Of a stretch of 64,000 nucleotides of DNA, positions 26,337 through 64,000 are shown piece after piece (position 1 is the first letter of the stretch; each line of letters begins with the position of its first letter). The notes under the pieces are model-generated. The model had not been told where the DNA came from, ran no database searches, and saw nothing but the letters and a program-made list of their open reading frames with translations. Made by a program: the position numbers and the translations under genes. Source of the DNA: Sphingobium yanoikuyae. GTDB taxonomy: Bacteria; Pseudomonadota; Alphaproteobacteria; Sphingomonadales; Sphingomonadaceae. Location: NCBI RefSeq assembly GCF_034424525.1, contig NZ_CP139979.1:930001-994000 (forward strand), given 5' to 3'.

Positions 26337-26375
26337 GGAAAATCCCTCGCCTCGATTGTTCTTACTAGTAGGGGC
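26337..26375 (+). promoter_or_regulatory. candidate ECF-sigma promoter before the receptor gene
   Basis: GGAAAA (26337-26342), 8-base spacer, CTCGATTGTT (26351-26360), then TAGTAGGGG. It is identical at all fixed positions to the motif upstream of fecR. It starts about 97 bp before the chosen GTG start. Confidence 0.65.
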
Positions 26376-26433
26376 TTCATGCAACTGCTTCTCAATTGCA
26401 GATGGCCCGCCAAACGAGGAAGGGTGTATCATA

Positions 26434-38213: not shown

Positions 38214-39254
38214 TCAACTCAAAACGACCACGTCTCCCGGTAGGCGCGTCACCTTCGCGCCTACCACCAGTTCCGCCTGGTCGAAGAACTCATCCAGTCG
38301 ATCGATATTGTAGGTCCCATTGAGCCGGCGCCCGCCCAAGGCGCCGCTTGCCAGAATCACCCGACCCTTGCGGTAACGGTTTATCTCCTGGATCACCTCT
38401 CGCATCGGCATCTCCTGGAATATCAGCGTGCCGTTTCGCCAGGCGGTGAGAACCGTCGTATTGGCCTGTGCGGTTACGGCGCCGATGCCACGGTCATCGT
38501 ACCGGACCTCCTGAGAGGCAGCTAATCGGCGAAGCTCACCGTTCCATGCCACCTCAACCTCGCCAGATAAACAGGTGATGCAAATCTCATCTTCGGTGCG
38601 CCGAGCGCTGAACTGCCCGTTTTTGCCGATGCTTGTGCCTCTGCCGGCAACCAGCGCGGCGGTTCCCGATCGACCACTCGTGACAACCGCCTCGCCGCTG
38701 ATCAGTTCAACAGCTGGCATGGCAAGATCGCTGCGGAGATTGATGCTGGTGCGGGTATTGAGTTCGACCGTAGCGCCATCGTCGAGGCGCACCACAAGGC
38801 GTTCGCCGGTGCCGGTTCGGTATTTGGCGTTCAGTTCGGCGAACGATGGCATCATGTCGAACGAGCGTCCGACGAGCAACAGCCCGCCTGCAACGGACGC
38901 GGCCATGGCGCCACCCAGAAAGGCGCGCCTTGAATGCTTCTTTTTTTCTCTTTGAGCGTTGAGGCTGGCGACATTGCTGACAATTCCGATGGTTTCGGGT
39001 GCCTCGACACCTTCGGCAACGCGCACGACCCGGCGCAACCTGACGGCCGATCGAAAAGCCAACTCGTGAGCCGGACTTTGGCCCCGCCACGCAATCAGGT
39101 CAGCTGCGTCCGCCTCCGTAGCATTGCCGGAGAGCAGATGATTGAGATGCTCGAGCCCCTCCAGGCGGAGGAGCGCCAGCTCTTCATCGGTCCATGTCGT
39201 CCTTCCACTCATCCTGAACAGCCAACCAGTTGCGAGATCATGAGCGCTTTGCAT
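38214..39254 (-). CDS. FecR-type anti-sigma/signal transducer (second set)
   Basis: 346 residues. Cytoplasmic DUF4880-like N-terminus (EADAADLIAWRGQSPAHELA), a membrane segment after an RRAFLGG motif (residues ~108-128), the FecR periplasmic domain (GERLVVRLDDGATVELNTRT, FSARRTEDEICITCLSGEVE) and a C-terminal STN-like part (MPMREVIQEINRYRKGRVIL). It would control the sigma factor encoded 20 bp upstream. A VreR-like role is suggested by the barrel-less STN protein at 42240 and the TPS locus beyond. Confidence 0.88.
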   Translation of the reverse strand: MQSAHDLATGWLFRMSGRTTWTDEELALLRLEGLEHLNHLLSGNATEADAADLIAWRGQSPAHELAFRSAVRLRRVVRVAEGVEAPETIGIVSNVASLNAQREKKKHSRRAFLGGAMAASVAGGLLLVGRSFDMMPSFAELNAKYRTGTGERLVVRLDDGATVELNTRTSINLRSDLAMPAVELISGEAVVTSGRSGTAALVAGRGTSIGKNGQFSARRTEDEICITCLSGEVEVAWNGELRRLAASQEVRYDDRGIGAVTAQANTTVLTAWRNGTLIFQEMPMREVIQEINRYRKGRVILASGALGGRRLNGTYNIDRLDEFFDQAELVVGAKVTRLPGDVVVLS

Positions 39255-39274
39255 CGAGACATGCTTGCGCTCCC

Positions 39275-39826
39275 TTATCTAGAGGACACTCTGGCTAGCT
39301 GTTCTTGCAAAGCCGCCACCGAAAAATCTTCTGTCACCTGGTGAAGGTGCCTGCTCGCCAGCAGCAGTTCGTTCCGAATTGAGCGTTCTGACAAGCTGTA
39401 TTCCAAAGCCAGTTCCTTGTAAGTTGCCGATTCCACCCAGAATCGCCTGAAAATGGCCTGGCGACGGGGCGGCAGTTCCTGCAATGCCCGCTCGACGGCC
39501 GCAAGCTCCGACCGGCCTTGAGCCGTACGGTCCTGATCGGGGTTTTCGTCCGGTATATCTATCAGGCGATCGATATCTGCGGTGGAGAGGTGTTTCATCT
39601 CGGCTCGCTGGCTGTTCCTCGCGGTGTTCAGCGCGATGGTCAGCAGATACGAAATCGGATTTCGCACTTCATCCGAGATCTCTGCTCGATGTAGCCGCAA
39701 ATAGGTATCGTGTAGCGCTTCCTGCGCTTTCTCCGTCGAGCCAAGCCGACCGGTCAGTCGGCGCTTCAATTCCGGATATGCCGTCACGAACAGCGACAAG
39801 AGAGCCTCGCGCGGGGACGAGGTCAC
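39275..39826 (-). CDS. ECF (FecI-type) sigma factor (second set)
   Basis: 183 residues from GTG 39826, with GAGGAT upstream on the minus strand. Region 2: RLGSTEKAQEALHDTYLRLH. Region 4: LPPRRQAIFRRFWVESATYK followed by LALEYSLSERSIRNELLLAS. Length and layout are those of FecI-type sigma factors. The downstream gene is its FecR partner. It differs clearly from the sigma factor at 24682, so the two surface-signalling circuits are separate. Likely targets are the TPS genes, by analogy with VreI of Pseudomonas aeruginosa. Confidence 0.9.
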   Translation of the reverse strand: MTSSPREALLSLFVTAYPELKRRLTGRLGSTEKAQEALHDTYLRLHRAEISDEVRNPISYLLTIALNTARNSQRAEMKHLSTADIDRLIDIPDENPDQDRTAQGRSELAAVERALQELPPRRQAIFRRFWVESATYKELALEYSLSERSIRNELLLASRHLHQVTEDFSVAALQEQLARVSSR

Positions 39827-39878
39827 GGAATAGATCCTCGATACAATATCTTAAGCTGATATATAATAGCCGCCCCCT

Positions 39879-40562
39879 TCAATTCGCCGTCCGGAAAGCG
39901 ACTTGCTGTAGAGACGAATCGATCTCGATCACGAAATCCATGCGGGCAGGTAGCGAGGCAGGGATGGGGGGAAGGGGCCTTGATCGCTCAAGTGCGGCCA
40001 GCGCCGCGTTGTCGAGCATCGCGGATCCTGAACTCCGATGTACCCAGCTTTCCAGGACGTTGCCGTTTCTGTCGAGCCGAAATGCCAGAGCGGTGATTCC
40101 GGCTAGACGAAGCTGTTTTGCCTCTCCGGGATAGCGGCTGTGGCGCGCAACGATCTCGTAGAGCAGACGCTGGTATTCATTGAGTTCTGCGGTATCGATG
40201 GCGGACTCGATGCCGCCGCCATCTGCGGGCCTTGATGCGGCTCGATCGCTATTGGAGGGCGCCGATCTGGCGATGGTTCCCAAAGCGGATTCTTTGGGCG
40301 CGGCAGCCGCAATGGGCGTTCGGGCATCATGGCCGGTAGACAATTCGGACGGCGTTGAGGTCGGACGGTTCGCCGAGCGATCCGATTCGCCATTTCCGCT
40401 TAATTCAATGAAATCGACCATCATGGCTGTTTCACGTTGCGGACTTGGTTTCGAGGGCTTAGGCGAGTTGGAGTTAGCCGCGATAAGGCCACCCAGCACG
40501 GCTGCATGTCCCAGGCACGAAACCAGGATACCCAGGACATCGATTCGGGCGGGGCTGGACAT
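39879..40562 (-). CDS. TonB C-terminal domain protein
   Basis: 227 residues from ATG 40562; in-frame ATGs at 40640 and 40715 are less supported. A single N-terminal membrane segment (VLGILVSCLGHAAVLGGLIA), a spacer low in complexity, and a TonB C-terminal domain from about residue 130 (YPGEAKQLRLAGITALAFRL, VHRSSGSAMLDNAALAALER). It is a second TonB-type protein, placed upstream of the sigma and fecR genes on the same strand, 52 bp apart, and probably in one operon. It may couple signalling to the outer membrane. Confidence 0.8.
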   Translation of the reverse strand: MSSPARIDVLGILVSCLGHAAVLGGLIAANSNSPKPSKPSPQRETAMMVDFIELSGNGESDRSANRPTSTPSELSTGHDARTPIAAAAPKESALGTIARSAPSNSDRAASRPADGGGIESAIDTAELNEYQRLLYEIVARHSRYPGEAKQLRLAGITALAFRLDRNGNVLESWVHRSSGSAMLDNAALAALERSRPLPPIPASLPARMDFVIEIDSSLQQVAFRTAN

Positions 40563-40947
40563 GGCGGACTCGCATAAATTGAAAGGCGGGTTGGCGGCTT
40601 CATAGACGTCTTTTTCCGTCTGCAATATGACATGCCTCATGAGTGTCGGAATCCCGCTAGGGATTCCCCTAGCAAATGTGCCGAATGGTTGGGGTAAAGG
40701 GCTGCCTATAGTCATCGGGGCAAAGGCGGCTCATCTATGCTAACGGCAGAAATAGGTCGATATGGAATAGGTTGCGCCAAGAATCTGGCTGAAAATCTTG
40801 TCCGAATTGGCGAATATACTTTCGGTCAGAAAAGAGAAATTCTGCCCGACCTCCGATCGGCGGTTGCTTTTTCAGCAAGCAATTGTGAGCTAGCTCAGCG
40901 AAGCAAGCGTGGTGATTCACGCCTTGGCGTAAGCTGAACGAGCATCG
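40563..40947. promoter_or_regulatory. divergent control region with a perfect palindrome (40648-40667)
   Basis: Interval between the minus-strand TonB-sigma-fecR unit and the plus-strand LuxR gene. GGAATCCCGCTAGGGATTCC at 40648-40667 is a perfect 20-bp dyad, the size of a lux-box-type operator. ACGCCTTGGCGT lies just before the LuxR gene (40919-40930). No convincing gene is present; the 66-codon frame at 40737 has no RBS. Confidence 0.55.
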
Positions 40948-40949
40948 TC

Positions 40950-41675
40950 ATGGCGGATATTCTCCCCTTCGAGCGCCCTGATAGCCCCATCAAGGCGAAG
41001 CCCGGTGTCGAGGCCAAGAAGGCTGGCATCGGAGCGTCGCTCCTCAACCTGGCGGATACCTATGGGCTGTATAGCGGCCTGTATCTGCATTTTGGCCATT
41101 CTCGGGGCAGTGCTGTTCGCGCCATTGCATCGAGCGCCAACGCAGAGCGCCAGTATGTGAACCTCCTTGCGGACAGCAGTCTGGTTATCAAGGCATTGGC
41201 GGCACGCCGTCCCTTCACCTGGTCTAGCAGTGAGATCAGGTTTGCGCACAAGCTAGACACGCCACATGTCGGCATTGCAATTCCGGTCCAGGATCATCCC
41301 AATGGTCCAGGCCTTGTTGCGCTTATCGGGGTTGGGCTCGATGCGGTGCGTAAAACGGTGAAAGACCATGGTCCCGCCCTGTCATGGGCGGCCACAGACA
41401 TTCATGCGGCGGCGCTCACGGTATTGCGTGTCGCGCACATTGAAGCGCCGACCCGTCGGGAAATGGAATGCCTGAGGCTGGCGGCCCTGGGAATGACTGT
41501 GCCGAAGATCGGCAAAACGCTTCATATGTCGACCCGGACGGCTGAAGTTTACTTACACAGGGTCGTGAAGAAACTGGGTGGGGCCAACAAGGTCAATGCG
41601 GTTGCAATTGCCGTAAGCCGAGGTCTCTTGCAGTGCGACCCATCTGGCCTCGAGCACTCTGAGCCGGCGAGCTGA
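40950..41675 (+). CDS. LuxR-type regulator (solo 2)
   Basis: 241 residues. The N-terminal domain has YGLYSGLYLHFGHSRGSAVR, a conserved-type tryptophan in RPFTWSSSEIRFAHK and VGIAIPVQDHPNGPGLVALI. The C-terminal helix-turn-helix (APTRREMECLRLAALGMTVP ... STRTAEVYLHRVVKKLGG) is complete. It is more distant from the other two LuxR proteins and lacks the clear D-P pair, so ligand preference may differ. A short GC hairpin follows at 41714-41735. Confidence 0.85.
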   Translation: MADILPFERPDSPIKAKPGVEAKKAGIGASLLNLADTYGLYSGLYLHFGHSRGSAVRAIASSANAERQYVNLLADSSLVIKALAARRPFTWSSSEIRFAHKLDTPHVGIAIPVQDHPNGPGLVALIGVGLDAVRKTVKDHGPALSWAATDIHAAALTVLRVAHIEAPTRREMECLRLAALGMTVPKIGKTLHMSTRTAEVYLHRVVKKLGGANKVNAVAIAVSRGLLQCDPSGLEHSEPAS

Positions 41676-41713
41676 GGAGGACGACGGGAACGTTACAGGC
41701 GGGCGGTGCGGAA

Positions 41714-41755
41714 ACGCCCGGATCCTGTCGGGCGTATTCAGGCTTTTTGTTTATC
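41714..41755 (+). terminator. possible terminator after the LuxR gene
   Basis: ACGCCCG (41714-41720) pairs with CGGGCGT (41729-41735); a T-rich run GGCTTTTTGTTT follows after a few bases (41741-41752). The distance between stem and T-run makes it a weak example. Confidence 0.4.
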
Positions 41756-41806
41756 GGCCGTCGTCGCCCAACTTCTGATCCTGACCGGCAAGGCGCGATC
41801 CCAGCT

Positions 41807-42118
41807 ATGAATAAAGACGAACTGATCGAGCGCGTTGCCGTGAGAAGCTATCTTACTCGCGCTGAGGCGTTTCGTGCGGTTGAGGCCGTCTTCGCCACGA
41901 TCGGAGACGCTGCTATCCGCGGCGAGGCTGTCTCGATCAACCGCTTCGGCATTTTCTCGGTGAAATCGTGCAGCGCCAGGGAAGGACGCAACCCGCGTAC
42001 TGGCGAGAGGATATTGATTTGCCCAACGCGGAAGCTGGTATTCCGGGCCAGCAGGGCAATGAAGGATTTGCTGCTCGGTGAGGAGAGAAGCGATCCTATT
42101 GAGCTCGACCCCAGGTGA
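41807..42118 (+). CDS. HU/IHF-family DNA-binding protein
   Basis: 103 residues from ATG 41807. MNKDELIERVAVRSYLTRAE is the helical HU N-terminus, INRFGIFSVKSC the beta-ribbon base and REGRNPRTGERILICPTRKL the DNA-inserting arm with its family-typical R-N-P. It is close to HU in length with a short acidic tail. It bends DNA and may assist the LuxR/ECF-controlled promoters nearby or be a plasmid-borne nucleoid protein. Convergent with the STN-TonB_C gene. Confidence 0.9.
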   Translation: MNKDELIERVAVRSYLTRAEAFRAVEAVFATIGDAAIRGEAVSINRFGIFSVKSCSAREGRNPRTGERILICPTRKLVFRASRAMKDLLLGEERSDPIELDPR

Positions 42119-42239
42119 CATGTTTGTGTCGTGCCTCGTTCGACACGTTCGAAAGGGCCTTCAGCCCCCCTTGCGTTTGCACAGACGGCCCGGATGAGTT
42201 GGGGCCTCGGTCGTCATAGAATTTCACCGATAAGTGCTA

Positions 42240-42947
42240 TCACGGTCGCCGCTGGCCATTTCTCATCCCGCGTAGCGCCACTGCAAGGGGTTGCTGAAGG
42301 CCGTCGGGCGGGGGAGACACCGCAACTCGCAGGAGCGCGTCGATCACCAGAAGGTCGGTTTTGGCGCTACCGCTACTGCGGTGAACGACGACATCACTCA
42401 ATGTGCCATCTGCATCAATGCTGAGATGGACAATCAGGCTGAAATTGAGCCGTTCCGTGCCTGCACTTGCATGGAGGTAGGCATACAGCTCTTCCTCCAG
42501 CAGGCCATAATAAGCGAGCCGTTCAGCCGATAGCAGTCGCATGGTCGCGACCTGTTCCCTGACCACGATGCGTCCGAGCGGGACCAGGGAAGATTGGTTG
42601 TTACCGCTCGGTGTCGTGATGATAGCGGCGTCCGTCCCGCTGTAGCGAACGACGAGTCCCGAGCCGGTCAAGAGACGCCGAAGCGCTTCGCGAGGCGTGA
42701 ACCTGCCTTTCACACGGGTCGATCGAAGCCCCGAGGCCAAGGTGCTGTCATATAGCAGTTGAACGCCAGTGATGCTGAAATATTGCGCCAAAGCGGCGTG
42801 AAGGGGCTGTTCGGGTATGTCGAATGATACAACTGTTTCGGAAGCCTCTGGCTGAGCATGAGCACTCGTTCCGAATGAGTACATGAGGATGGCAAGGCAA
42901 ATTGAGAGCGCCGCCGCCAGGCTACGAAGAACATGAGGTAGCGACAT
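42240..42947 (-). CDS. barrel-less STN plus TonB_C periplasmic protein (VreA-like)
   Basis: 235 residues from ATG 42947 (an upstream in-frame ATG at 43046 is possible). Signal peptide (RSLAAALSICLAILMYSFG, ends SAHAQ), STN domain (VSFDIPEQPLHAALAQYFSI ... GLVVRYSGTDAAIITT), then a TonB C-terminal-like domain (NFSLIVHLSIDADGTLSDVV, HRSSGSAKTDLLVIDALLRV). A receptor-type signalling domain without plug or barrel recalls VreA of the Pseudomonas aeruginosa PUMA3 system, which signals to a FecR/FecI pair. Such a pair lies 3 kb away. The role is inferred from this likeness. Confidence 0.75.
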   Translation of the reverse strand: MSLPHVLRSLAAALSICLAILMYSFGTSAHAQPEASETVVSFDIPEQPLHAALAQYFSITGVQLLYDSTLASGLRSTRVKGRFTPREALRRLLTGSGLVVRYSGTDAAIITTPSGNNQSSLVPLGRIVVREQVATMRLLSAERLAYYGLLEEELYAYLHASAGTERLNFSLIVHLSIDADGTLSDVVVHRSSGSAKTDLLVIDALLRVAVSPPPDGLQQPLAVALRGMRNGQRRP

Positions 42948-43399
42948 CAGGGCGATGAATAGGACATGCTGGGCCTGTTGGGGAGCCGATTGTCCTGAGA
43001 AATTGTATTGAGCGGCGCCGCCTGATCGCATCCAACCTTCCTTCACACCGCTCCGATTTTGGTATGACCTTGAAGGTCAGAACCTAGAAATAAATTTAAT
43101 TTCCGTTCTCCTGCGGGAGATTCGTATGACGGCGTTCGTTCGGCGGCATCTATGTGAACAAGATCATGTCATCGACATGACTTTCCCAAATGTAATTTTC
43201 ACTAGCGATTATCGTCAAGATTTTACGGAACAGTGAATCACTTGCCTGCGATACATGATTCATTGTCGAGTAAGTGCGTTATTGTTTCAATTTTATGACG
43301 AAACCGCGTGTAGGCGAAGAAAAAAACTTTGCCGAATTTCTTGCCAGATTCACGTGCTCACCGTGTCCATTTTTCAGGAGCTCTAAGGGGGTCGTTGAG
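42948..43399. promoter_or_regulatory. divergent promoter region with an operator-like dyad
   Basis: 452 bases, AT-rich for this window, between the STN-TonB_C gene (minus) and the third LuxR gene (plus). TCATGTC ATC GACATGA at 43164-43180 is a perfect dyad. Promoters of both genes and of the TPS operon are likely to lie here. No gene is supported. Confidence 0.5.
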
Positions 43400-44200
43400 A
43401 TGTTAGCGGGTGGTGCGCTTCAGCGCCAGTTTGATCATGCGTGCGTTGCCCTCGATGTCTCGTGGGTGCGGCACTTCGTTATGGAGGGCGGTTCGGTCAT
43501 GGCAATTGGCCCGATCGAGGATTGCGCCTCTTCGGTGGACCTCGAGAACTGGTTAGAACAGCTCGCATCGGAGATGGGGTTCGACGGTGCTCGCTACCAT
43601 CATGTCGGGCATCGTCCGCAAGGTGGAAGGACCGCTAAACGCCCGCCGCTCCGTTTCCTCTCCACATTGGAGAACGGGCAGGAGCCGTGGCGTGCCGGAG
43701 ATCCCGCTCTCTCGCAAATCGTCCAATCTTTCCTCCCCTTTGTCTGGTCGACTAAAGACGATCTGTCTCTCCCCGATCTGCAACGTGCCTGGTTGAGCAT
43801 CGAACGCTTGCGCGGTGTAGAAGCAGGTGTCGTCATCCCCGTTCAGGATTATCTGTCGGGACCAGCCTATATCAGCCTATTCAGCGAGAAGCTCTCACAA
43901 GCGATCTCGGCGGTTGAGCAGCGGCGGCACGAGATGGCTACGCTCGCTATCGAATTCCACCTTCGAGCAAAGCAGTTGATCACCATTCGGACGCGGTCAT
44001 CAGTCCTGCTTTCGGATCGCGAGTTTAGTTGTTTGCGCAATGCAGCTGCGGGAGTGGCGCTTGCCGAAAGCGCCGGCAGTCTTGGAATATCGGTACGAAC
44101 AGTTGAAACCCATCTAGCCAAGGCGACGCTCAAGCTTGGCGGGACCAACAGGATCAACGCGGTCGCGATCGCAATTGGGTCTGGCATGATCCATGTTTGA
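43400..44200 (+). CDS. LuxR-type regulator at the head of the TPS operon (solo 3)
   Basis: 266 residues from ATG 43400 (AAGGGGG upstream; in-frame starts from 43274 are possible). ARYHHVGHR, PPLRFLSTLENG, the D-P pair in WRAGDPALSQI and PFVWSTKDDL correspond to the ligand-domain residues of AHL sensors; GVEAGVVIPVQDYLSGPAYI is shared with the 37287 regulator. The helix-turn-helix (LSDREFSCLRNAAAGVALAE ... VETHLAKATLKLGGT) is complete. The stop lies 7 bp before the TpsB start, so it is co-transcribed and probably controls the locus. Confidence 0.87.
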   Translation: MLAGGALQRQFDHACVALDVSWVRHFVMEGGSVMAIGPIEDCASSVDLENWLEQLASEMGFDGARYHHVGHRPQGGRTAKRPPLRFLSTLENGQEPWRAGDPALSQIVQSFLPFVWSTKDDLSLPDLQRAWLSIERLRGVEAGVVIPVQDYLSGPAYISLFSEKLSQAISAVEQRRHEMATLAIEFHLRAKQLITIRTRSSVLLSDREFSCLRNAAAGVALAESAGSLGISVRTVETHLAKATLKLGGTNRINAVAIAIGSGMIHV

Positions 44201-44207
44201 GAAGCGC

Positions 44208-45956
44208 ATGTCATTCTCTTCCCAATTGCACGTTGGCCTGCGTGCTAATCTCACGTCGCGCTTAGCGTTCGTTGCTGCCCTGGCGGCAGTGGTGCAGCCG
44301 TCATTTGCCTATGCGCAAAGTGATCAGGATGCCGAACAGTCCTCTGCTGCAGACACAGAGCCGGTGAGGGCTTCGGGAAGCTTTTTAATCGCCGCGATCG
44401 ACGTCGTGGGCGCCACCAAACTCTCAAACGCCGAGATCGAGAGGATCATCTACCCGTTTCTTGGACCTGATAAAAACGAAGCCGATGTGACCGCTGCGCA
44501 AAAGGCTCTTCAGGCGGCGTATGCCGCGAAAGGCTATGAGGCGGTCGAGGTCGAGATTCCGATCCAGCCCAGCGAACGTTTCGCGCAGGGGATCGTCCAG
44601 CTGGCTATCCATGAAGTGCCGCTCGGCGAGGTTCGTATCGTCGATGCAAAACATCATTCGGACAAGAGCGTCCGCGGTGACGTCCCGTCACTTGTTCCCG
44701 GTCAACCAATCGATATCGCAGCGCTTCAGCGTGATGTCGCCGAAGCCAACCGCTTCCCCGACCGTACCATCACCCCGCGCTTTCGCTCCGGTGGGCAGCC
44801 GGGAACCGTCGATGTCGAGTTGAAGGTCGACGACAAGTCCCCTTTCCACGGGTCGGTCGAATTGAACAACGACAATAGCCCCAATACCAGATCCCTGCGC
44901 GCAAGCGCCACTGCACGCTATTCCAATCTCTGGGGCCAGGGCCATACGCTGTCGGTCACAGGTTCGATCGCGCCGCAGGATACCGACCAGAGTGCGGTCA
45001 TCTCGGCTTCCTACAATGCGCCGCTTATCGGCACGCCCTGGGGTTTCCTGCTCTACGGCTACAGGTCGAACAGCAATGTCGCGGCGCTTGGCGGCACCAA
45101 CGTGTTGGGTAACGGGTATCAGATCGGCCTTCGCGCGACCTATCGCCTGCCGAGCACGAGCAGCTTCCAGCAGATCAGCTTCGGACCAGACTTCAAATCG
45201 TTCAAGGAACGGCTGAGCCTTGAAGGGACCGATCTTCAACCGACCCAAATCCGCTATGTGCCTCTTGTTGCCGAGTACATGCTGAGCGGTGGAAACGACA
45301 AGGAAACCTATGGACTGACGCTGGGCGTCACCGGCGGCCTCCGCGTGGTCAGGCGCAACGTCTGCTTTGAATCGCCTTATGCTGAAGGGTTCATACCGGA
45401 AGGCGTGCCTACCTGTTCTCTGGGCAATGGCGAGACTGGCATTCCGCAGGACCAGTTCACGGGCCGCGCCGTCGACGCCCGAGAGAACTTCGTCCACCTC
45501 AACATGGACCTGAATTACACTCGCCTTTTGCGCCGCGATTGGCAGGTCGCACTCCGGTTTACCGGCCAGCTTGCCGATTCCAGCCTCGTCACCAATGAGC
45601 AATTCTCGCTTGGCGGCATGTCGAACGTCCGGGGCTACTATGTTTCTGAGGCCGTCGGCGACGATGGCTTCATCTCCTCGGTCGAACTGCGCTCGCCCAA
45701 TTTCGGCAGCTCCTTGAGCTCGCTTGTCGATGAGATGCGGCTCTTTGCCTTCAGCGATCTAGGCTATGCTCGCGTGCGGGCGCCGTCGACCGGCCAGACC
45801 GACACATTCCGTCTCGTGAGCGTCGGTGGCGGCGTGCGTTTCGACCTGTTCAACCTGGTGACGGGCGAGGCACTGATTGGCGTTCCGCTCCGCAATGGGC
45901 CCACGAGCGACAAGGGCGATCCACGCTACAGCTTCACTATCAGGGGCGAGTTCTGA
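44208..45956 (+). CDS. TpsB/FhaC-type outer-membrane transporter of a two-partner secretion system
   Basis: 582 residues from ATG 44208 (ATG 44193 also in frame). Signal peptide ending SFAYAQ. POTRA 1 begins IAAIDVVGATKLSNAEIERI; POTRA 2 holds VQLAIHEVPLGEVRIVDAKH. The 16-strand barrel starts near HGSVELNNDNSPNTRSLRAS and carries VRGY (SNVRGYYVSEAVGDDGFISS), the conserved lid-lock motif of FhaC/Omp85 proteins. It ends YSFTIRGEF. It moves the TpsA exoprotein encoded at 51471 across the outer membrane. Confidence 0.93.
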   Translation: MSFSSQLHVGLRANLTSRLAFVAALAAVVQPSFAYAQSDQDAEQSSAADTEPVRASGSFLIAAIDVVGATKLSNAEIERIIYPFLGPDKNEADVTAAQKALQAAYAAKGYEAVEVEIPIQPSERFAQGIVQLAIHEVPLGEVRIVDAKHHSDKSVRGDVPSLVPGQPIDIAALQRDVAEANRFPDRTITPRFRSGGQPGTVDVELKVDDKSPFHGSVELNNDNSPNTRSLRASATARYSNLWGQGHTLSVTGSIAPQDTDQSAVISASYNAPLIGTPWGFLLYGYRSNSNVAALGGTNVLGNGYQIGLRATYRLPSTSSFQQISFGPDFKSFKERLSLEGTDLQPTQIRYVPLVAEYMLSGGNDKETYGLTLGVTGGLRVVRRNVCFESPYAEGFIPEGVPTCSLGNGETGIPQDQFTGRAVDARENFVHLNMDLNYTRLLRRDWQVALRFTGQLADSSLVTNEQFSLGGMSNVRGYYVSEAVGDDGFISSVELRSPNFGSSLSSLVDEMRLFAFSDLGYARVRAPSTGQTDTFRLVSVGGGVRFDLFNLVTGEALIGVPLRNGPTSDKGDPRYSFTIRGEF

Positions 45957-46302
45957 TGCCGGCGCTCCATCATCGGGCGTCGCCGTCTTTTACGTTTGCG
46001 GTGTTGAGCATTGGTCGGAGCCCGTCTGACCGGGTCATCTTCCGGCGATCGTCCTTCTCCGACCAGTCGGGGCGGTCGTGGCCATCGATCGGGCCAGGAA
46101 TTCCCTCAGGGCAGCTTGGCGGCTCCCCCAAACGCCCAGCGCCAGGGATCCCCGGAAGACCGGGCGGGAGAATTGTCCCCGCAGAAACAGAATTTGGGTG
46201 GGATGACCTCCCAGCGACCACCAGCAGCAACAGGCGCCGCGAGTGCGCGAGGATCAACCGCCCAATGCGGGCAGCAAGCGATATGGAAATAGGGGCGGCA
46301 AC
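45957..46302. other. non-coding interval between tpsB and the ExbB fusion gene
   Basis: 346 GC-rich bases. An open frame from ATG 45956 (overlapping the tpsB stop) is rich in Ser/Pro/Arg/Gly, lacks an RBS and resembles no family, so I do not call it. No terminator is obvious. Confidence 0.4.
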
Positions 46303-48024
46303 ATGGGTCGAATGAAACTTAAATGGCTTTTACCGCTGGCTGCGATGACAGCCTTCTCGACACCAGCGATGGCTTGGTGGGAAGCGGACTATAGCTATCG
46401 CACGAAGATCAACCTCAACACCCAGGCCGCCGGGGTCACCGGCGAAGTCGCGCGCGCGCCGGTGTTGATCCGCCTGCACTCGGGCAACTTCAGTTTCAAG
46501 GATGTGAAGGCCGACGGCTCCGACCTGCGCTTTGTCGCGGGGGACGACCGCACGCCGTTGAAGTTCCACATTGAAAAATGGTCACCGGCCGACGAACAGG
46601 CTCTGGTGTGGGTTGATGTTCAGGGTTTGCAGCCCGGCGCGGCCTCGGCCATTTACGCTTATTACGGGAATGAGAAGGCTGCCGCGGCGCAGGATGTTGC
46701 GGGAACCTATGGGCCGGATTACCGTCTGGTCTATCATTTCAATGATGAGGGTGCGGCCAAGGACGCGACCTCGAATGCAAACAATTCCACCGGCACTGCG
46801 GGTCGCAACGCGGCAGGTCTGATCGGTTCGAGCCTTGTCCTCGATGGCGCGACCCCGGTCGCACTGCCGGCAGGGGCTTTCGCAGCCGGTCCGCTATCGA
46901 TCAGCTTTTGGGTGAAGCCTGGTGGTAACGGCACGATCTTCGTGTTGCCGGGTGCCGTGAGCCTGGTAGCCGAGGGCGGCCAACTCTTCATCGATCAGGG
47001 CGGCAATCGCTCGGCAGGCGGCGCGCTGGCTGCCGACGCCTGGGCCAATGTCGCGCTGGTCAACGACGGCACCAAGACCGTGGTGTACATCAACGGTCAG
47101 CCTGCCGGTGAAGTGACCGGCGCGCTTGCTGCGGCGAGCGGCGCCCCGGTTCTGGGGCAGGGTTTCAAGGGCGAGATCGACGAGTTCCGCGTGGCCGGCG
47201 CCGCGCTGCCGCAGGCGGCTTTTCAGCTTGCTGCTGCATCGGAAGGTCAGACCGCGAAACTCGTCACCACGGATACCGCGCAGCAGGTCGAGTCCGGCGG
47301 CGGTCACGGTCACTTCGGGATCCTGTTCGGTGCGCTGACTTTCGACGCCTGGGTCGTCATCCTGATCTGTGCCTTCATGCTGCTGGTCGCGATCGCGATC
47401 ATGATCAGCAAGGGTCTGCTGATCGCCAAGGTGAGGAGCGCAAACGAAGCCTTCCTCGACGCTTATAACAGCCAGGCACGGCGCGCAGGAGACCATGACG
47501 GGCTACCGGCGTTCGATCCAGGCAATGCCGCTGCGGACTCTACTCTGGGCCGTCTCTACAATATCGGCCGTAGAGAACTGACCGAACGCCTCAAGGAAGG
47601 TAAGGCCACCGGAAGCCGCTTCGCGATCCGCGCGCAGTCAATCGCTGCGATCCGTTCGGCGCTTGATGCGGGCCGGGTGCGCGAAGGCCAGAAGCTCAAT
47701 GCCCGTCTGGTGCTGCTGACCATCGCCATCTCGGGTGGCCCTTTCATCGGTCTGCTCGGAACAGTGCTCGGCGTCATGATCACCTTTGCCTCGGTCGCGG
47801 CCGCTGGTGAAGTGAACATCAACGCCATCGCTCCGGGTATCGCCGCGGCTCTCCTTGCCACGGTTGCGGGCCTCGCGGTCGCGATCCCGGCGCTGTTCGG
47901 CTACAACTATCTGCTCAGCCGCATCGAGGAGATCACCGCCGACCACGACATCTTCGTGGACGAGCTGGAGAAGCGCATCGCCGAGACCTGGCAGGATGTC
48001 CCCACAGCGGCCCAAGCGGCCTGA
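46303..48024 (+). CDS. DUF2341-LamG-ExbB (MotA/TolQ) fusion protein
   Basis: 573 residues. Signal peptide ending TPAMAWW. DUF2341 domain near residues 25-135 (DYSYRTKINLNTQAAGVTGE, LVWVDVQGLQPGAASAIYAY). A LamG/concanavalin-like domain spans about 140-320 (SISFWVKPGGNGTIFVLPGA). A membrane helix (WVVILICAFMLLVAIAIMIS) follows, then an ExbB/TolQ proton-channel domain (GPFIGLLGTVLGVMITFASV, AIAPGIAAALLATVAGLAVA). It joins a probably periplasmic glycan- or protein-binding head to an energy-coupling channel. With ExbD and TonB downstream it forms a dedicated energy complex for the TPS locus. Confidence 0.9.
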   Translation: MGRMKLKWLLPLAAMTAFSTPAMAWWEADYSYRTKINLNTQAAGVTGEVARAPVLIRLHSGNFSFKDVKADGSDLRFVAGDDRTPLKFHIEKWSPADEQALVWVDVQGLQPGAASAIYAYYGNEKAAAAQDVAGTYGPDYRLVYHFNDEGAAKDATSNANNSTGTAGRNAAGLIGSSLVLDGATPVALPAGAFAAGPLSISFWVKPGGNGTIFVLPGAVSLVAEGGQLFIDQGGNRSAGGALAADAWANVALVNDGTKTVVYINGQPAGEVTGALAAASGAPVLGQGFKGEIDEFRVAGAALPQAAFQLAAASEGQTAKLVTTDTAQQVESGGGHGHFGILFGALTFDAWVVILICAFMLLVAIAIMISKGLLIAKVRSANEAFLDAYNSQARRAGDHDGLPAFDPGNAAADSTLGRLYNIGRRELTERLKEGKATGSRFAIRAQSIAAIRSALDAGRVREGQKLNARLVLLTIAISGGPFIGLLGTVLGVMITFASVAAAGEVNINAIAPGIAAALLATVAGLAVAIPALFGYNYLLSRIEEITADHDIFVDELEKRIAETWQDVPTAAQAA

Positions 48025-48052
48025 GCCCCTCAGAGGATAAGGAGTTCGGGTC

Positions 48053-48472
48053 ATGGGTATGCAAGTCGGCGGGCCGAAGAAGCCTTACAACGAAATCAAT
48101 ATCACACCGTTTGTCGATGTCGTGCTGGTGCTGCTCATCATCTTTATCTTGATGACGACGGCGGCAGTGCAGGGGATCAAGGTGGACCTGCCGTCCGCTT
48201 CGTCGGCAAAGACGCTGGAGGCGCAGAAGAGCCGGGTCATTGCCGTTTCCAACGACGGCACGGTGTCGATCGACGCGATTCCGGTGTCGATGTCGGAACT
48301 GGAAACGCAGCTTCGTTCCAGCATCGCGACGACTCCGGACCTCGCCGTGATCCTGCGCGGGGACCGGGCTGTCCAGTATGACAAGGTCATGCAGGTTCTG
48401 GATTTATGCTCGAAGGTTGGTGTGCCCAGCCTCGGCATGGCGTCCACGCGTCCGCCCGGCGGCGGGGCCTGA
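48053..48472 (+). CDS. exbD: ExbD-type biopolymer transport protein
   Basis: 139 residues; AAGGAG precedes ATG 48053. One N-terminal membrane segment contains the proton-path aspartate (NITPFVDVVLVLLIIFILMT), followed by a small periplasmic domain (SRVIAVSNDGTVSIDAIPVS, AVILRGDRAVQYDKVMQVLD). Length is normal. It forms the TonB motor with the ExbB part of the preceding fusion protein, 28 bp upstream. Confidence 0.95.
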   Translation: MGMQVGGPKKPYNEINITPFVDVVLVLLIIFILMTTAAVQGIKVDLPSASSAKTLEAQKSRVIAVSNDGTVSIDAIPVSMSELETQLRSSIATTPDLAVILRGDRAVQYDKVMQVLDLCSKVGVPSLGMASTRPPGGGA

Positions 48473-48635
48473 GGGGAGGGCCGATGCTTTATATCGATCC
48501 TTCAATCGCCGTGAGGGCAACGGATCAAGTCGGGATTCTGACCCGATTTGTCGTTGGTCGGTCCGGGTCTCCTAACCAGGAGAAGCTTCCCGGGACGGCT
48601 CTCCGTGCGTGCGCGCCATTGCGAGGGGGCCGGTG

Positions 48636-49367
48636 ATGGCTGCCGCGTCATTGATGCTTCCGGACGGCTCCGATCGTCCGCGCCGGAAAAAGTCCCCGAT
48701 CACTTTCGGTCGGATTCTGGCAGTAGTCGCCATCGGGCTGGTGATCGCGATCGGCTATAATTTCCTGGGTACGCAAACGGTCAGCGACCGGCCCAACGAA
48801 ATGAAAACCACGCAGGTCATTCTCCCTCCGCCTCCACCGCCACCGCCTCCACCGCCAGAAACGAAGCCGATCGAACAGCCGCCTGAGCCGACGATCGCGC
48901 CGCCGATCGAACAACCGGTCGATACACCGCCACCGCCGCAAGCCAACAATGATCCTTCGCCGGGCGACAATGCGCTGACCGCGAGGGAGGGGGCGGGGCC
49001 TGTTTATGGCGGCCTTGCGGTGGGTGATGGCAGCGGCGTCCGCATCGGTGGGAAACCGGGCGGCGGTGGTTCCGGCGGCGGCATGTCGGTCGGCATGTAC
49101 ACCAGCTACCTCAAGTCATCACTGCAGGAGCGCGTTCAGGACGATCCACGGCTTAGTCGCCTCGTCTTCTCCGCAGACTACTCGCTCACCGTTACACGCG
49201 ATGGTCGCATCACAGGCGTAACGTTTCGCAATGCCAGGGGCGGAAGCGACGAAGACATGCAGAAGCTCACGGCTTTGCTGCAGGAGGTCCGCGGGCTCGA
49301 TCCACCGCCGCAGGCCATGGTGTTTCCACAACTTGTCACGGTTCGGGGGCGCAAGAGCTCCCTCTGA
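48636..49367 (+). CDS. tonB: TonB-type energy transducer of the TPS locus
   Basis: 243 residues from ATG 48636. The membrane anchor is FGRILAVVAIGLVIAIGYNF. A polyproline spacer follows (eleven prolines in a row near residue 68, then PPEPTIAPPIEQPVDTPPPP). The C-terminal domain (GMYTSYLKSSLQERVQDDPR, VTRDGRITGVTFRNARGG) is of the shorter, TonB_C-like type. Spacing from exbD is 163 bp. It should link ExbB/ExbD to the porin-like protein or to the TpsB pair in the outer membrane. Confidence 0.88.
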   Translation: MAAASLMLPDGSDRPRRKKSPITFGRILAVVAIGLVIAIGYNFLGTQTVSDRPNEMKTTQVILPPPPPPPPPPPETKPIEQPPEPTIAPPIEQPVDTPPPPQANNDPSPGDNALTAREGAGPVYGGLAVGDGSGVRIGGKPGGGGSGGGMSVGMYTSYLKSSLQERVQDDPRLSRLVFSADYSLTVTRDGRITGVTFRNARGGSDEDMQKLTALLQEVRGLDPPPQAMVFPQLVTVRGRKSSL

Positions 49368-49399
49368 TTATCAGCCCGCGCGGGCAAAGGGGATTTAGA

Positions 49400-51211
49400 A
49401 TGTCACAGCGATTGAAGTTTCTGCAAACTGGACGATTGATGCTCACCACATCGTTGTGCGCAGCGGTGCTGGTTACGGCGCCTGCGTTCGGGCAGGAAGC
49501 TCAAGGCCAGGCCGCCCAGCCTGACAGCGCGGTGGCGACGATGGTCAAGCTGCTCGTTGAGGAAGGCATTGTCAGCCCTGAAAAGGGCCAGGCGTTGATG
49601 CGACGTGCCGAAGCGGAAGCGGCGCAGCGCGCGGCGAGTGCTCCGCCTGCACGCTCGGCTGAACTCGCGCCCCCGCCGGCCGGAGCAGTCCGTGTTCCCT
49701 ATGTCCCCGAAACGGTTCGTGCGCAGATCAAGGATGAGTTGCGCCAGGAAGTATTGGCGCAGGCTCGGACCGAGCGCTGGGCGGCGCCTGACGAAGCGGC
49801 ACCCGATTGGACGCGCAATATCCAAATTCATGGAGATTTCCGTTTCCGCTCGGCGTCGCACTTCTATGGTCGGGACAATGCGGTAGCGCACTACACAGAC
49901 GTGGCGGCGTTCAACAACAATGGCCCCTATGACGTCTCGGGTTTCGGCGGCCAATTGCTCCCCACGCTCAACACAACGCGTGACAAGCGCAACAATATGC
50001 AAGTCCGTGGCCGGATCGGTATTGAAGCCAAGGTTGCAGATCGGTTCACGCTCGGCTTCCAGCTGGCGACGGGTGACGATCCAGGACCGATCTCGACGAA
50101 TTCCAGCCTGACGGGTGGTTTCCGCAAGCGCGATGTCTGGATCCAGAACGCCTATGTGAAAGGGGAGCTCGTCCCCGGCGTGACCGCGATGCTCGGCCGG
50201 TTCGACAACCCACTTCGGTCGACCGATCTCATGTTCGACCCGGATCTCGCCTTTGACGGCGTCTACGGTGAAGCGAACATCACGCGCATTCTGGGCAACG
50301 ACGATTTCCGGTTCGCTGTTCGCGGCGGCGCGTTCCCGCTCCAGTTCGAGCCCGAGAATTTCCCGGAAACCTCGGTCGGCAAGCGCAATTGGCGCGATCG
50401 CTACCTGTTCACCGCCCAGGCCGAACTCGGCAAGACCTTCGGTGGCGGCATCGATGTCAACGTCAGTGCGGCCTATCACAATTTCACATACCTTCGTGGC
50501 CATGTATCGGAGCCGTGCGACGTCTTTTCCGCGAGCAATGTCGAGTGTTCGACCGACCTTCTCCGGCCGCTTTGGCCAAGTAAGGGCAACACGCTGATGT
50601 ACCTGCGGGACATCGACTTTACCTATGCTGATCCCGCCAATCCTCTCGATCCGCAGTATCTCGGCCTAAAATACGCTTACCGCGTGCTCGACCTCAATGC
50701 CTCGGTCAGCGTGCCGATCTCCGAGCGCGTGCAGGCGCGCCTCACTGGCAACTTCCTCCACAACTTCGGGTTCGATCCGAAGAATAACTGCCTTCGCGGG
50801 AACCAGGGCGCACCGATCACGAACGTTGAGATCACCGATCCGACCAATCCGCGGCAGGGGGTGTGCGACGCCACCAATCCCGCGCGCTTCGTGGGTGGCA
50901 ACGAAGGCTATGGGATTTACCTCTCGATCGGCGATCCAGCTTTGTTCAGCGTTAATCCGCGGCGCGCGAAGCGCGGTTCGTGGGCGTTTAACGCTGCCTA
51001 CAAGTATCTCGAAAGCGACGCGGTCCCTGACAGCTTCACCGACTCCGATTTCCGGCTCGGTGGAACCAACGCGAAAGGTTTTGTCATTGGCGGCGCCTGG
51101 GCTCCGTTTAACAATGTGACCATCGGCGGCCGCTGGCTTTCCGCAGGTGAGATCGTTGACGCCCCGCTTCGCATCGACGTGCTCCATCTCGACCTTGGCC
51201 TGGCCTTCTGA
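49400..51211 (+). CDS. putative outer-membrane porin
   Basis: 603 residues; AAGGGG precedes ATG 49400. Signal peptide ends APAFGQ. An N-terminal helical, Ala/Glu-rich region (LLVEEGIVSPEKGQALMRRA ... QIKDELRQEVLAQARTERW) precedes a long barrel (IQIHGDFRFRSASHFYGRDN, VRGRIGIEAKVADRFTLGFQ) that ends in IDVLHLDLGLAF. The layout is that of putative porins found in TPS-ExbBD-TonB loci. It may be the outer-membrane partner energised by the TonB set. Substrate unknown. Confidence 0.82.
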   Translation: MSQRLKFLQTGRLMLTTSLCAAVLVTAPAFGQEAQGQAAQPDSAVATMVKLLVEEGIVSPEKGQALMRRAEAEAAQRAASAPPARSAELAPPPAGAVRVPYVPETVRAQIKDELRQEVLAQARTERWAAPDEAAPDWTRNIQIHGDFRFRSASHFYGRDNAVAHYTDVAAFNNNGPYDVSGFGGQLLPTLNTTRDKRNNMQVRGRIGIEAKVADRFTLGFQLATGDDPGPISTNSSLTGGFRKRDVWIQNAYVKGELVPGVTAMLGRFDNPLRSTDLMFDPDLAFDGVYGEANITRILGNDDFRFAVRGGAFPLQFEPENFPETSVGKRNWRDRYLFTAQAELGKTFGGGIDVNVSAAYHNFTYLRGHVSEPCDVFSASNVECSTDLLRPLWPSKGNTLMYLRDIDFTYADPANPLDPQYLGLKYAYRVLDLNASVSVPISERVQARLTGNFLHNFGFDPKNNCLRGNQGAPITNVEITDPTNPRQGVCDATNPARFVGGNEGYGIYLSIGDPALFSVNPRRAKRGSWAFNAAYKYLESDAVPDSFTDSDFRLGGTNAKGFVIGGAWAPFNNVTIGGRWLSAGEIVDAPLRIDVLHLDLGLAF

Positions 51212-51470
51212 TGGTAAGTGACGCCCTCTCCTTTACCCAAGGTTCAGCCTTGGCCGTGCTCGCCGGCGCCTCTCAACGCGTGGGCACGGCGGCGTCGCCG
51301 GGTCGTTCCGGCGGCGCCATTAAGGGGAGGGGGGATCACCGCTTCAATTTTGCAAGCGTAACAAACGAAAGCCGTCTCTCGCATTCTGAGATCAAGGTGC
51401 GCCGAGGCCTTCGTTTTCGCCGAATTTTTCCTTCTCAGCTGTTCGGCCTCCTGCCGATCGGAGCCTTCTC
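51212..51470. other. leader of the tpsA gene
   Basis: 259 bases with no gene. GGAG at 51460-51463 is the RBS for ATG 51471. A separate tpsA promoter is possible; no terminator after the porin gene is evident. Confidence 0.4.
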
Positions 51471-60400: not shown

Positions 60401-63400
60401 TGGCTCGGCTCGCGGTGAAGCGCCGGTGGTCACCCTGCGTGCGGGCAACGACCTCACGATCAACCGCTCGATCTCGGACGGGTTCTTCACGTTCCGTGAC
60501 AAGTCCGATGTCGACTACATCAACTGGCAGCTTGGCGGCGGGGATCGCACCTGGCAGCCGGCGCTCCAGTTCTCCTGCGGTGGCGCGAGCGGCTCCTGTA
60601 GCAATATTGCTTCCTATGGCACCGGTGCCAATCCCGGTGCATCCAGCACGCTGACGATTTCGCTCACCACGGCTGCCACTCAGGGTGATCAATATATCGG
60701 AGCCGCCAATATCAACTCGCCACTGTCGCTGGCCGGCAACGGCGCAGATGCTGGCGGTGAAAGCCGCAACGCGCTTGGTTTCGCTGAGCTCTTTTCGCTG
60801 CTCGACGGCGATGTGGCCATGCACTCGTCGGACATTCGGCTTGTCGCGGGTACAGGCAACACGCTCTCGGCCAATCCGCTGGTCGTCGACCGGGCGCTCA
60901 ATGCCGACGTCACGCTCCAGGGCGAATACAGCTATCGCATCACCGCGACCGGAACGGTCGCCTATGACGGGCCGCTGCAATTCCGCCTGCAACGCGCCGC
61001 CAACGATCCGTCGAAGATCAGCTTCGATATCGGCGATACGCTCGATCTCACCGATACCACGGCTGACCTCAACCTCCTGCGCGACGACGCCTATACCCAG
61101 CTCAATTGGGGAAGCACGGCAGGTCTCGGCGCGGACACACGCGCTGCGGCACGGCTTTTCTTTGAGGGTAAGGGCTATAGCTTTGTCGGCAATGCAACCA
61201 ACCCAACGGGGATCATCGCGCCGCTAAGCGAAGTCATTGCGTTTCTGCAGAGCTTCGAGCCCACCTATCAGGCAGGCCTCGCGAGCGGGCGCACCGGCTA
61301 TAGCGTCAATCGGACCCCGCCGATCATCCGCTACGGCAACGCCAACCAGCAGACCACGCCGAACGCGCCGAACCAGGCCTTCGTTCGTACCGTAGTCCGC
61401 AGCGGCGATGGCAATATTGCGATGGCCGCGTCGCGCGACATCGATCTGCGGGGCGGGGAGCAGGTGGTCTATCGCCGTGCTGACGGCACCCAAGTTTCGG
61501 CGCCAAGCTATTTTGGCGGCTCGACGGATGCGGTGCAGTTCGCTTCCGCGGCGATCTACACGGCCGGCGTTCGGGTCGCGCCGTCGGATGTTCGTGGGCG
61601 TATTGTCGGCACAGATCAGATTGTGTCGCTCACACCTGACAGCACTTACCTGTCGCCTATTGCCGACGCGGTGGATTTCATCCCTTCGCCCAAGGGCATT
61701 TCAGGGAACATGCCGGTGCTGGCCCATGGCGGCGGCGATGTGTCCCTTGATGCCGGGCGTGATGTGCTCGGCCGACGTGACGAATGGACTCAGCTCACCG
61801 GGACGGTGGGGCAAGGCTACTCGGGAGGTGAGCTTGGCGCAACAAGCACGGATGCCTTCGGAACCGCAGGGCTCCAATCCACCCAGCCGTGGAGGACCGG
61901 GACTATTGGTGACGATACCGAAATCGGTCTCGCATACGGCTATTTCCGTTCCGGCGTAGGGGGACTTGCTGGCGGCGATGTCAGCGTGACAGCGGGACGT
62001 GACGTTTCTGAACTGACCGTCGTTCTCGGTTCGACCGCGACAACGACGCTTTCCGACGCCGGCAAGACCATGCTGACCTTCGGCGGTGGCGATCTCTCGC
62101 TGGCGGTCGGGAGGGATATTCTGGCTGGCACGGCGGACATCGCGGCCGGAAGTGCGGAAATCCATGCAGGCCGTGACATTGCGGCCCGAGGACGTGAGCC
62201 CATCGCGGCGGAGACACCACAATATCTACGGGTGCGCCTCGCTGACGCGGTGGTCGACATTTCGGCGGGAGGATCGGCAATTCTCGCCAGCGTTTCCGCG
62301 CTGGGTCTGGATCAGTCCCAGGGATCCGGAGGCTTCTATTCTCCTGCGGCTGCGTTCTCGCTGTCGACCGTCGAAACCGCGCGGATCGCACAGACCGCCG
62401 GCCTCGGCGATCCCAAGGACTTCGGACAATTTCCGTCAGCGAGGTCGGAGTTCGGCCGCGAAATCGACTTCTCGCAAATTCTCCCGCCAAGCATGGCGCT
62501 CACGTCTCTCGCGGCGAGCGTCGAACTACCCCAGAACAGCCCCCAGATCCTTTATCCGTCCGCGGTCGGGCAATTGCGGATATTGAGCGCGGATAGCATC
62601 AAGGGCCTCGTCATCGGCATGGATGATAGCGACCCCGGGCAGGTCGGCGGCGGTTTCTCGAGCGGTCAACGCTTTTTCCAGTTGCCGGGCGTGACCCCTA
62701 TGACCACCGATGTTGAGCTCCGGCTGCAGCATAATCAGCGCATCACTCATGCCGGAGACGCTCAGCCGGTGCGCATCCATACCGACGGTAGCATCGACCG
62801 CGGCGCGATCTTCCTGCCCAAGCAGGCGCGCATCACCGCGGGCGGCGACATCGTTGACCTGTTCTTCCAAGGCCAGAATTTGGCGGCGGGTGACACGACC
62901 CGCATCCGCGCCGAGGGCGATGTTATGGGAACGATCGGCAGTGACGGTAGCTTCAGCTATGTCCAATCCAACAACTTTATCCTCGGTGGGCCTGGCGCCT
63001 TCATCGTCGAGGCGGGCGGCGATATCGGGCCTTTCGTTTCATCGGTCCGGGCGGGCGGTGCGGATAGCGCTGGCGGGATCCGCACGATCGGCAACGACTA
63101 CAACCCTTGGCTTTCGGATGAAGGGGCAAGCGTCAGCGTACGCTTCGGTATCAAGGGCGGTGCCGACTATGCAGCGCTCCGCGAGACCTATCTCAACCCC
63201 GAGAATTTCGCGAAGCTCGACGGTGACCTGTTCGAGCAGGTCACCGACAGTTTTGGCAACCGCAAGCCTGACCGGACGAAGCCGATCTATGCGCCGATGC
63301 TCGCCGACTGGCTGCGCGATAATGACCCGGCGGCGTTCACTGAAATCTTCGGTACGAGCTCGCCGTCGGGCGAGGCGCTTGCTAGCGCGGCCTACGGAAA

Positions 63401-64000: not shown

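Follow-up and report, generated by a model that had tools for sequence, protein, structure and literature searches.

The closest described counterparts of the locus analyzed here are the PUMA3 signaling system and the Pdt two-partner secretion (TPS) genes of Pseudomonas aeruginosa. VreA is described as having an STN domain and a TolA/TonB-like C-terminal domain (CTD) without a barrel (PMC2729926), and the Pdt genes of strain PAO1 reportedly belong to the targets of the sigma factor VreI (PMC2729926, PMC7035377). The published gene order is pdtB-exbB2-exbD2-tonB4-PA0696 (PMC7035377), PA0696 being a putative outer membrane porin, and the cluster lies near the Hxc type II secretion system (T2SS) (PMC7035377, PMC4971064); the ExbB2-ExbD2-TonB4 unit beside PdtAB is referred to as "still uncharacterized" (PMC7035377). 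The linkage of PUMA3 to TPS outside Pseudomonas is already known, having been noted in 2009, together with ExbBD, for Rhodopseudomonas, Burkholderia, and Janthinobacterium (PMC2729926). A further precedent is the HxuA-HxuB-HxuC system of Haemophilus, in which a TPS protein feeds a TonB-dependent transporter (PMC5422565).

The window (a 64,000-nucleotide stretch of Sphingobium yanoikuyae) contains a PUMA3/Pdt-type locus, as an earlier sequence-only reading had proposed, and Pfam and NCBIfam searches place the FecI, FecR, STN-TonB, TpsB, ExbB-fusion, ExbD, and porin genes where that reading had put them. The genes for the STN/TonB protein, sigma factor, and FecR are divergent to a TpsB-ExbB-ExbD-TonB-porin-TpsA series. 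On the minus strand are a VreR-like, FecR-type anti-sigma factor (38214 to 39254; Pfam FecR and DUF4880, with NCBIfam FecR below cutoff), a FecI-like/VreI-like ECF sigma factor (39275 to 39826; Pfam Sigma70_r2 and r4, NCBIfam sigma70-ECF) and its neighbor, a TonB_C protein (39879 to 40715; Pfam TonB_C), the small open reading frame (ORF) orf127 (41738 to 42121; from the ORF list), and a 268-residue, barrel-less VreA-like protein with an STN domain and a TonB-type CTD (42240 to 43046; Pfam STN and TonB_2). orf127 matches no Pfam family at E below 0.001 (best E = 0.04) and no NCBIfam family below 0.1. In an AlphaFold model of the VreA-like protein (mean pLDDT 71, pTM 0.39), the STN domain resembles those of FpvA and PupB in fold as it does in sequence (Foldseek E down to 1e-6), and the CTD weakly resembles TonB and TolA (Foldseek E 0.01 to 0.05).

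On the plus strand, a TpsB transporter (44193 to 45956; Pfam POTRA_2 and ShlB) is followed by an ExbB fused to DUF2341 and LamG (46243 to 48024; Pfam DUF2341, Laminin_G_3, and MotA_ExbB), ExbD (48053 to 48472; Pfam), a TonB-like protein (48609 to 49367), a Porin_5 putative porin that is the PA0696 counterpart by position (49400 to 51211; Pfam E = 8e-139), and the giant TPS exoprotein TpsA (from 51471). An ORF at 45956 to 46315 has neither a Pfam nor an NCBIfam match and was treated as spurious. TpsB has POTRA domains and a ShlB barrel and TpsA has a TPS domain, as two-partner secretion demands; in profile searches of the 4,357-residue TpsA, the TPS domain lies near the N terminus and DUF3739 near the C terminus. 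The earlier reading had TpsA within the window; the gene is indeed present from 51471, but it continues past the window end at 64000 and finishes at 64544. The TonB claimed for the block is likewise there as a TonB-like gene, but its Pfam match falls under the cutoff (TonB_2, E = 0.76), and named relatives are labeled as TonB in some cases and as "TonB-dependent receptor" in others. Three LuxR genes accompany the block, in line with the suggestion that LuxR regulators had been added: LuxR1 (37287 to 38099, minus strand; Pfam Autoind_bind and GerE), LuxR2 (40950 to 41675, plus strand; Pfam GerE DNA-binding domain), and LuxR3 (43274 to 44200, plus strand; Pfam Autoind_bind and GerE), the last overlapping the TpsB start by 8 bp in ORF coordinates. 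Short inverted repeats are visible by eye in the divergent intergenic region between the VreA-like gene and LuxR3 (43047 to 43273).

Compared through gene kinds and published gene order rather than PAO1 sequences, the locus agrees gene by gene with that of PAO1 (PMC7035377, PMC4971064, PMC2729926). Both have a barrel-less STN protein with a TonB/TolA-like CTD, an ECF sigma factor, a FecR-type anti-sigma factor, and a TPS pair; the TpsB-ExbB-ExbD-TonB-porin order is that of pdtB-exbB2-exbD2-tonB4-PA0696, and T2SS genes are nearby. They differ in that the VreA-like gene is set apart from sigma-FecR by orf127, LuxR2, and TonB; in the three LuxR genes, with no Pho box found above chance; in the position of TpsA directly after the porin, with Hint_2 and TPR-sulfotransferase genes following; and in the mobile-looking island and hybrid TonB described below. 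Because the opposite-strand LuxR2 lies between the VreA-like gene and TonB-sigma-FecR, there is no single vreA-vreI-vreR operon, and we therefore regard the locus as a PUMA3-type variant and not as PUMA3 itself. Contiguous VreA-sigma-FecR order does hold in relatives with an AraC gene (for example, L019 and L023). A Pseudomonadaceae-like genome (G415, so judged partly by its gene order) has the order VreA-Sig-FecR-T2SS-PBP_like_2-TpsA, resembling the PAO1 order vreAIR-hxc-pdtA, and its proteins are 29% (VreA), 37% (FecR), and 33% (TpsA C-terminal region) identical to those of the window. HxuABC resembles the window in genetically joining a TPS protein to TonB-dependent import (PMC5422565), but has a TonB-dependent transporter where the window block has none, having instead its own ExbBD-TonB and Porin_5.

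Most sphingomonad relatives are of a second type (L016, L017, L019, L021, L023, L025, L026, L028, and L063 to L065), which shares the core genes and the divergent layout with the window but has one AraC-family gene beside TpsB rather than LuxR genes, with TonB-VreA-Sig-FecR contiguous. In the nine AraC-type loci compared, ExbB and ExbD are 72 to 90% and 81 to 98% identical to those of the window, whereas TpsB, porin, VreA, sigma factor, and FecR are just 23 to 41% identical. These loci also carry the box cTGTAAcacAACTTACATA, conserved upstream of tpsB; two of them (L019 and L026) have a perfect Pho box in addition. All eight AraC-type genes tested are HTH_18 regulators by Pfam; L063 to L065 and L020 match AraC genes by tblastn, and L015 has no AraC match. 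Conserved ORFs of about 400 residues next to VreA in AraC-type loci were discarded, most of them being antisense shadows of the AraC genes. The LuxR-type variant, with three LuxR genes versus one AraC gene in most relatives, is new. A diverged second copy in Hephaestia caeni keeps all three regulators, with the LuxR1 orthologue (65% identical) adjoining FecR in L096 and the LuxR2 and LuxR3 orthologues (60% each) in L095. In a Sphingomonas sp. S2M10 copy (L097) at least one LuxR gene is next to FecR and TpsB is beside VreA, and in L024 a GerE gene lies between FecR and TpsB.

Linkage of STN homologues to TPS genes, which the earlier reading had made a test of its proposal, was borne out. Two family-wide searches of 249 and 397 partly overlapping genomes gave at least 15 full-length sphingomonad VreA-like loci in at least 12 genomes, the window included, counting matches that cover nearly the whole model; among the matches listed, TpsB adjoins the VreA-like gene in 12 of the 15. 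The other three (L018, L020, and L022) are extra AraC-TonB-VreA-Sig-FecR copies in a single genome, G252, that stop at contig ends on the TpsB side; no TPS match was found on their other side either, in stretches that include L043 and L044. The three copies recall the repeated clusters reported for Rhodopseudomonas (PMC2729926). In other families, 10 loci were chosen from seven genomes of a 398-genome phylum search, and nine of them have TpsA or TpsB nearby, the linkage of L053 being counted through the neighboring stretch L098; the 10 comprise six near-full model matches and four shorter ones in short open frames (three in G483 and one in G533). The exception, L057, has T2SS and PBP_like_2 genes in place of TPS. 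Other STN matches in short frames (for example, in G333, G561:C24, G651:C17, and G048:C2) are outside this set, and L026, L028, L095, and L097 were found by other routes and are outside the linkage counts. Recurrence of the block in such diverged genomes is more than chance. PUMA3-type loci thus recur in sphingomonads (at least 12 genomes), with either AraC or LuxR input. Of 41 relatives, five have DUF2341 (six genes), and five of these six genes are beside TpsB; for the remaining one, on a contig of 4.5 kb, no module match was found. Among the titles and abstracts listed by literature searches, none is on such sphingomonad loci, on DUF2341-ExbB beside TPS, or on the TonB chimera described below.

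Carried on a large island, the locus can evidently pass from one genus to another. The window lies within a segment of about 196 kb (G000:C1:887890-1083838) that, in the pieces compared and apart from about 39 kb in the middle, is 99.9 to 100% identical to Hephaestia caeni NZ_QXDC01000002.1 465755 to 652085, with several insertions relative to that copy. That the two are the same species was rejected as the cause, as a 3-kb piece is 75% identical to Hephaestia and the rpoB region 83 to 88%. Parts of the segment are 93 to 97% identical in Sphingobium arseniciresistens and Sphingomonas sp. S2M10. Its right end is a tRNA-Pro gene, the two ends share just 7 bp (TGGTCGG, the 3' end of the tRNA), and it holds a serine recombinase whose gene overlaps the tRNA, a TrwC relaxase, and a TrwB coupling protein; by these sequence features it is a mobile-looking island. 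The genes for the TrwC relaxase-helicase and the TrwB-type coupling protein adjoin each other at 14032 to 19520, and an IS66 transposase is at 3573 to 5474.

The strongest new point is a natural seam in the TonB-like protein. Against the LuxR-type locus L095, the window TpsB, Porin_5, and VreA are 80%, 82%, and 56% identical, and ExbB and ExbD 40% and 51%; against four AraC-type loci (L019, L021, L028, and L064) the pattern is reversed, with TpsB at 39 to 40% and porin at 33 to 35%, and ExbB at 85 to 90% and ExbD at 95 to 98%. The switch falls within the TonB-like protein, of which residues 1 to 75 are 14% identical to L095 and 61 to 76% identical to the four AraC-type loci, residues 76 to 140 are 47% and 80 to 83% identical, respectively, and residues 141 to 252 are 73% and 27 to 32% identical. 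At the DNA level, long similarity to L095 ends at 46084 and that to the four AraC-type loci starts at 46372, placing the left breakpoint in the interval 46085 to 46371. At the right, AraC-type similarity ends at 49000, 49051, 49066, and 49069 in the four loci and that to L095 starts at 49074, giving an approximate breakpoint at 49066 to 49074, inside the tonB-like gene. Within the exchanged energizer cassette the matches to L095 are confined to one short stretch of 262 bp (71% identical) and another of 327 bp (67%), and within tpsB the AraC-type loci likewise match in short pieces only. By these comparisons the protein is a natural hybrid: ExbB, ExbD, and the TonB N-terminal half with its linker are AraC-type, and the TonB CTD, porin, TpsB, and TpsA are LuxR-type.

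Sorting of the best 120 of 258 matches to the window TonB, together with the window sequence itself, gave 105 that are AraC-type in both halves, 10 LuxR-type in both, five with an AraC-type N-terminal part and LuxR-type CTD, and one ambiguous. To guard against reverse chimeras being overlooked by a query that is itself chimeric, a second sorting used a LuxR-type query (P0119; best 120 of 290 matches, 106 of them new). In both sets together (n = 227), 106 are AraC-type and 38 LuxR-type throughout, five are AraC-N/LuxR-C, and 78 are ambiguous, with one or both halves unclear (68 of the 78 have a LuxR-type CTD); no clear LuxR-N/AraC-C chimera was found among the 227 sequences from the chimeric and LuxR-type queries. 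P0057, which is among the five, differs very little from the window TonB. The metagenomic P0060 is 96% identical to chimera P0059 in its N-terminal part but 100% identical to the nonchimeric P0155 in its CTD, with the join in the same linker; this suggests a second exchange, provided that the 2.2-kb contig of P0060 is not misassembled. Across 12 loci, pairwise identities of the TonB N-terminal part correlate with those of ExbB (r = 0.82), and those of the CTD with TpsB (0.90) and porin (0.86). With the window left out, the values are 0.81 (ExbB) and 0.75 (TpsB) for the N-terminal part and 0.85 (TpsB) and 0.81 (ExbB) for the CTD, which leaves the split unclear, so that it rests mainly on the recombinants. 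The seam, together with the second join in the same linker, suggests that the TonB CTD is matched to the outer membrane partners of its own locus. The chimera predicts a CTD specific for an outer membrane protein of its own locus, and makes the role of TonB-ExbBD beside TPS loci testable.

We consider it probable that this is a PUMA3/Pdt-type signaling and TPS locus, in a LuxR-regulated variant on a mobile-looking island, that works as follows. The periplasmic VreA-like protein would relay the state of the cell envelope, via its STN domain, to the FecR-type anti-sigma factor, which in turn would free the ECF sigma factor. The sigma factor and the local LuxR regulators, standing in for the AraC gene of most relatives, would then switch on TpsB, the ExbB fusion, ExbD, TonB, porin, and TpsA. 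TpsB would export TpsA, and the ExbB-ExbD-TonB unit would act through the TonB CTD on an outer membrane partner from the same locus, either Porin_5 or TpsB. The comparisons above establish the gene identities and order, their conservation, the island, and the TonB/ExbBD chimera; sigma factor control of the TPS genes, the signal, and the TonB target are the parts of this scheme that we infer. In favor of the scheme, pairwise identities of VreA, sigma factor, and FecR covary (r = 0.89 to 0.93; 12 loci). The signaling genes and the TPS-porin-TonB unit could instead be two separate neighbors joined only by island co-transfer. The locus does sit on a transferred island, the three G252 signaling copies lack TpsB in the stretches analyzed, and one genome (G006; L029 and L046) has TpsB-ExbB-ExbD-porin-TpsA with no VreA or sigma factor match in 35 kb, so coupling is not obligatory. 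Moreover, pairwise identities of VreA, sigma factor, and FecR correlate just 0.34 to 0.57 with those of TpsB and porin. However, linked loci turn up in different families and classes with proteins 25 to 40% identical, an association older than a single recent co-transfer could explain; the G252 copies end at contig ends, with a TpsB-promoter-like box there; and in PAO1, control of the Pdt genes by VreI has been reported (PMC2729926, PMC7035377). We find two unconnected systems distinctly unlikely.

The hybrid TonB invites a further alternative, that the join is a neutral scar in low-complexity DNA encoding a Gly/Pro-rich linker and says nothing about partners. The breakpoint is inside the Gly-rich linker, the correlations of the two TonB parts with ExbB and TpsB are not clearly separate without the window, and the clear chimeras number just 5 of 227, two of them near-identical. 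Set against this are the uniform direction (all five are AraC-N with a LuxR-type CTD and none of the 227 is clearly reversed, with 78 ambiguous), the two different LuxR-type CTDs joined to an AraC-type N terminus, and the fact that ExbB, ExbD, and the TonB N-terminal part were exchanged as a single piece; a neutral scar is a serious contender, its chances somewhat short of even. What the motor drives is a related question. Porin_5-TonB-ExbBD could take up a nutrient (phosphate or a sugar, for example), with TpsA as a surface binder feeding it rather than a product of TonB-assisted secretion. The porin gene adjoins tonB, HxuA-HxuB-HxuC offers a precedent (PMC5422565), and PBP_like_2 and T2SS genes lie downstream of TpsA, as they similarly do at L057 and L053/L098; Porin_5, however, has no plug domain in Pfam, and we lean against the uptake reading while regarding it as possible. 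A bolder form of our preferred reading is that the locus encodes a secretion machine (or TpsA-fed uptake machine) powered by a TonB motor of its own. TonB would then be modular, its transmembrane half fitting ExbB-ExbD with the DUF2341-LamG head and its CTD fitting TpsB or porin. The motor would have been swapped at the seam at least twice, and the CTD would serve as an address label for a dedicated outer membrane system, driven by TonB, that has not been described before. We offer this tentatively, as a rather unlikely extension.

An EM search of 10 AraC-TpsB intergenic regions, some from close kin and some with approximate gene starts, recovered cTGTAAcacAACTTACATAg at 18.7 bits (10.1 to 11.0 in six shuffles) and, roughly 100 to 120 bp downstream of it, GCTGCATTGCAG at 12.6 bits (8.3 to 8.9 in shuffles); we read the 7-4-7 layout of cTGTAAcacAACTTACATAg as being like that of a Pho box. 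The TpsB-promoter-like box of the G252 copies, on their AraC side, reaches 31.0 and 20.2 in two of them and is weak in L018, at 12.4. A matrix scan for the AraC-type box in the window gave a best score at the locus of 14.5 to 16.0, versus 15.7 to 32 at the source sites, and a higher score of 17.6 at 1560, far from the locus, so we do not claim one. Exact 5+5 dyads shared among 29 upstream regions occurred in at most three sequences, the same as in each of 10 shuffles. A survey of 27 loci for canonical Pho boxes scoring 12/14 or better, a level reached once (at 12) and never exceeded in 500 kb of random sequence, found a 14/14 box between AraC and TonB-VreA-Sig-FecR in L019 and the near-identical L026, and 12/14 boxes in L065 at the matching place and in L056 between TpsA and FecR; most AraC-type loci have at best 9 to 10/14 at the L019-equivalent place. 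In the window plus 14 kb, three canonical sites reached 11/14 or more, compared with two to six in five shuffles. Because some AraC-type loci have Pho boxes and the window has no excess, phosphate input appears ancient yet patchily distributed; in the window locus LuxR input may have taken its place, the absence of a motif being weak evidence. The phosphate-limitation experiment proposed in the sequence-only reading is doubtful for the LuxR-type variant, since no Pho box stands above chance there. In the same genome, the sole match to PstS (TIGR00975) is below cutoff, to the PBP_like_2 gene of the island.

Several features of the surroundings are worth recording. Directly 3' of TpsA are genes for a Hint_2 protein and a TPR-sulfotransferase (L007:6593-10008), which perhaps act on TpsA; these are followed by PBP_like_2 (minus strand) about 5.4 kb from TpsA and the T2SS genes E, F, D, and K about 7.5 kb from it. 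T2SS genes next to TpsA are seen at L007:11958-19999, L008:1130-4047, and L046:80-7989, and PBP_like_2/T2SS genes also near L057 and L053/L098; in G006, T2SS genes F, D, and K (41 to 52% identical) adjoin TpsA despite the lack of a VreA match. AraC-type loci have a small protein starting MST(S/A/T)(T/A)LLI(V/L) between Porin_5 and TpsA (L026:4763-5554, L025:234-905, and L021:18628-19206), with no Pfam match in the two scanned and no tblastn match in the window. A TonB gene beside VreA-Sig-FecR recurs in AraC-type loci, and at L022:9902-11293 TonB and VreA-like stretches share one open frame and could represent a TonB-VreA fusion; a frame in L016 (10004 to 11398) resembles it, but has a TGA inside the VreA-like match. 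Elsewhere in the window, a SlipAM gene (a Slam-type surface lipoprotein assembly modifier, 30576 to 32084) is in the vicinity of a gene for a TonB-dependent receptor (26323 to 29568; STN matched weakly) and a TonB gene (33066 to 34265). A cytidylyltransferase gene (CTP_transf_3, 36410 to 37243) adjoins LuxR1, and in the second Hephaestia caeni copy a 67% identical homologue is about 5 kb from LuxR1.
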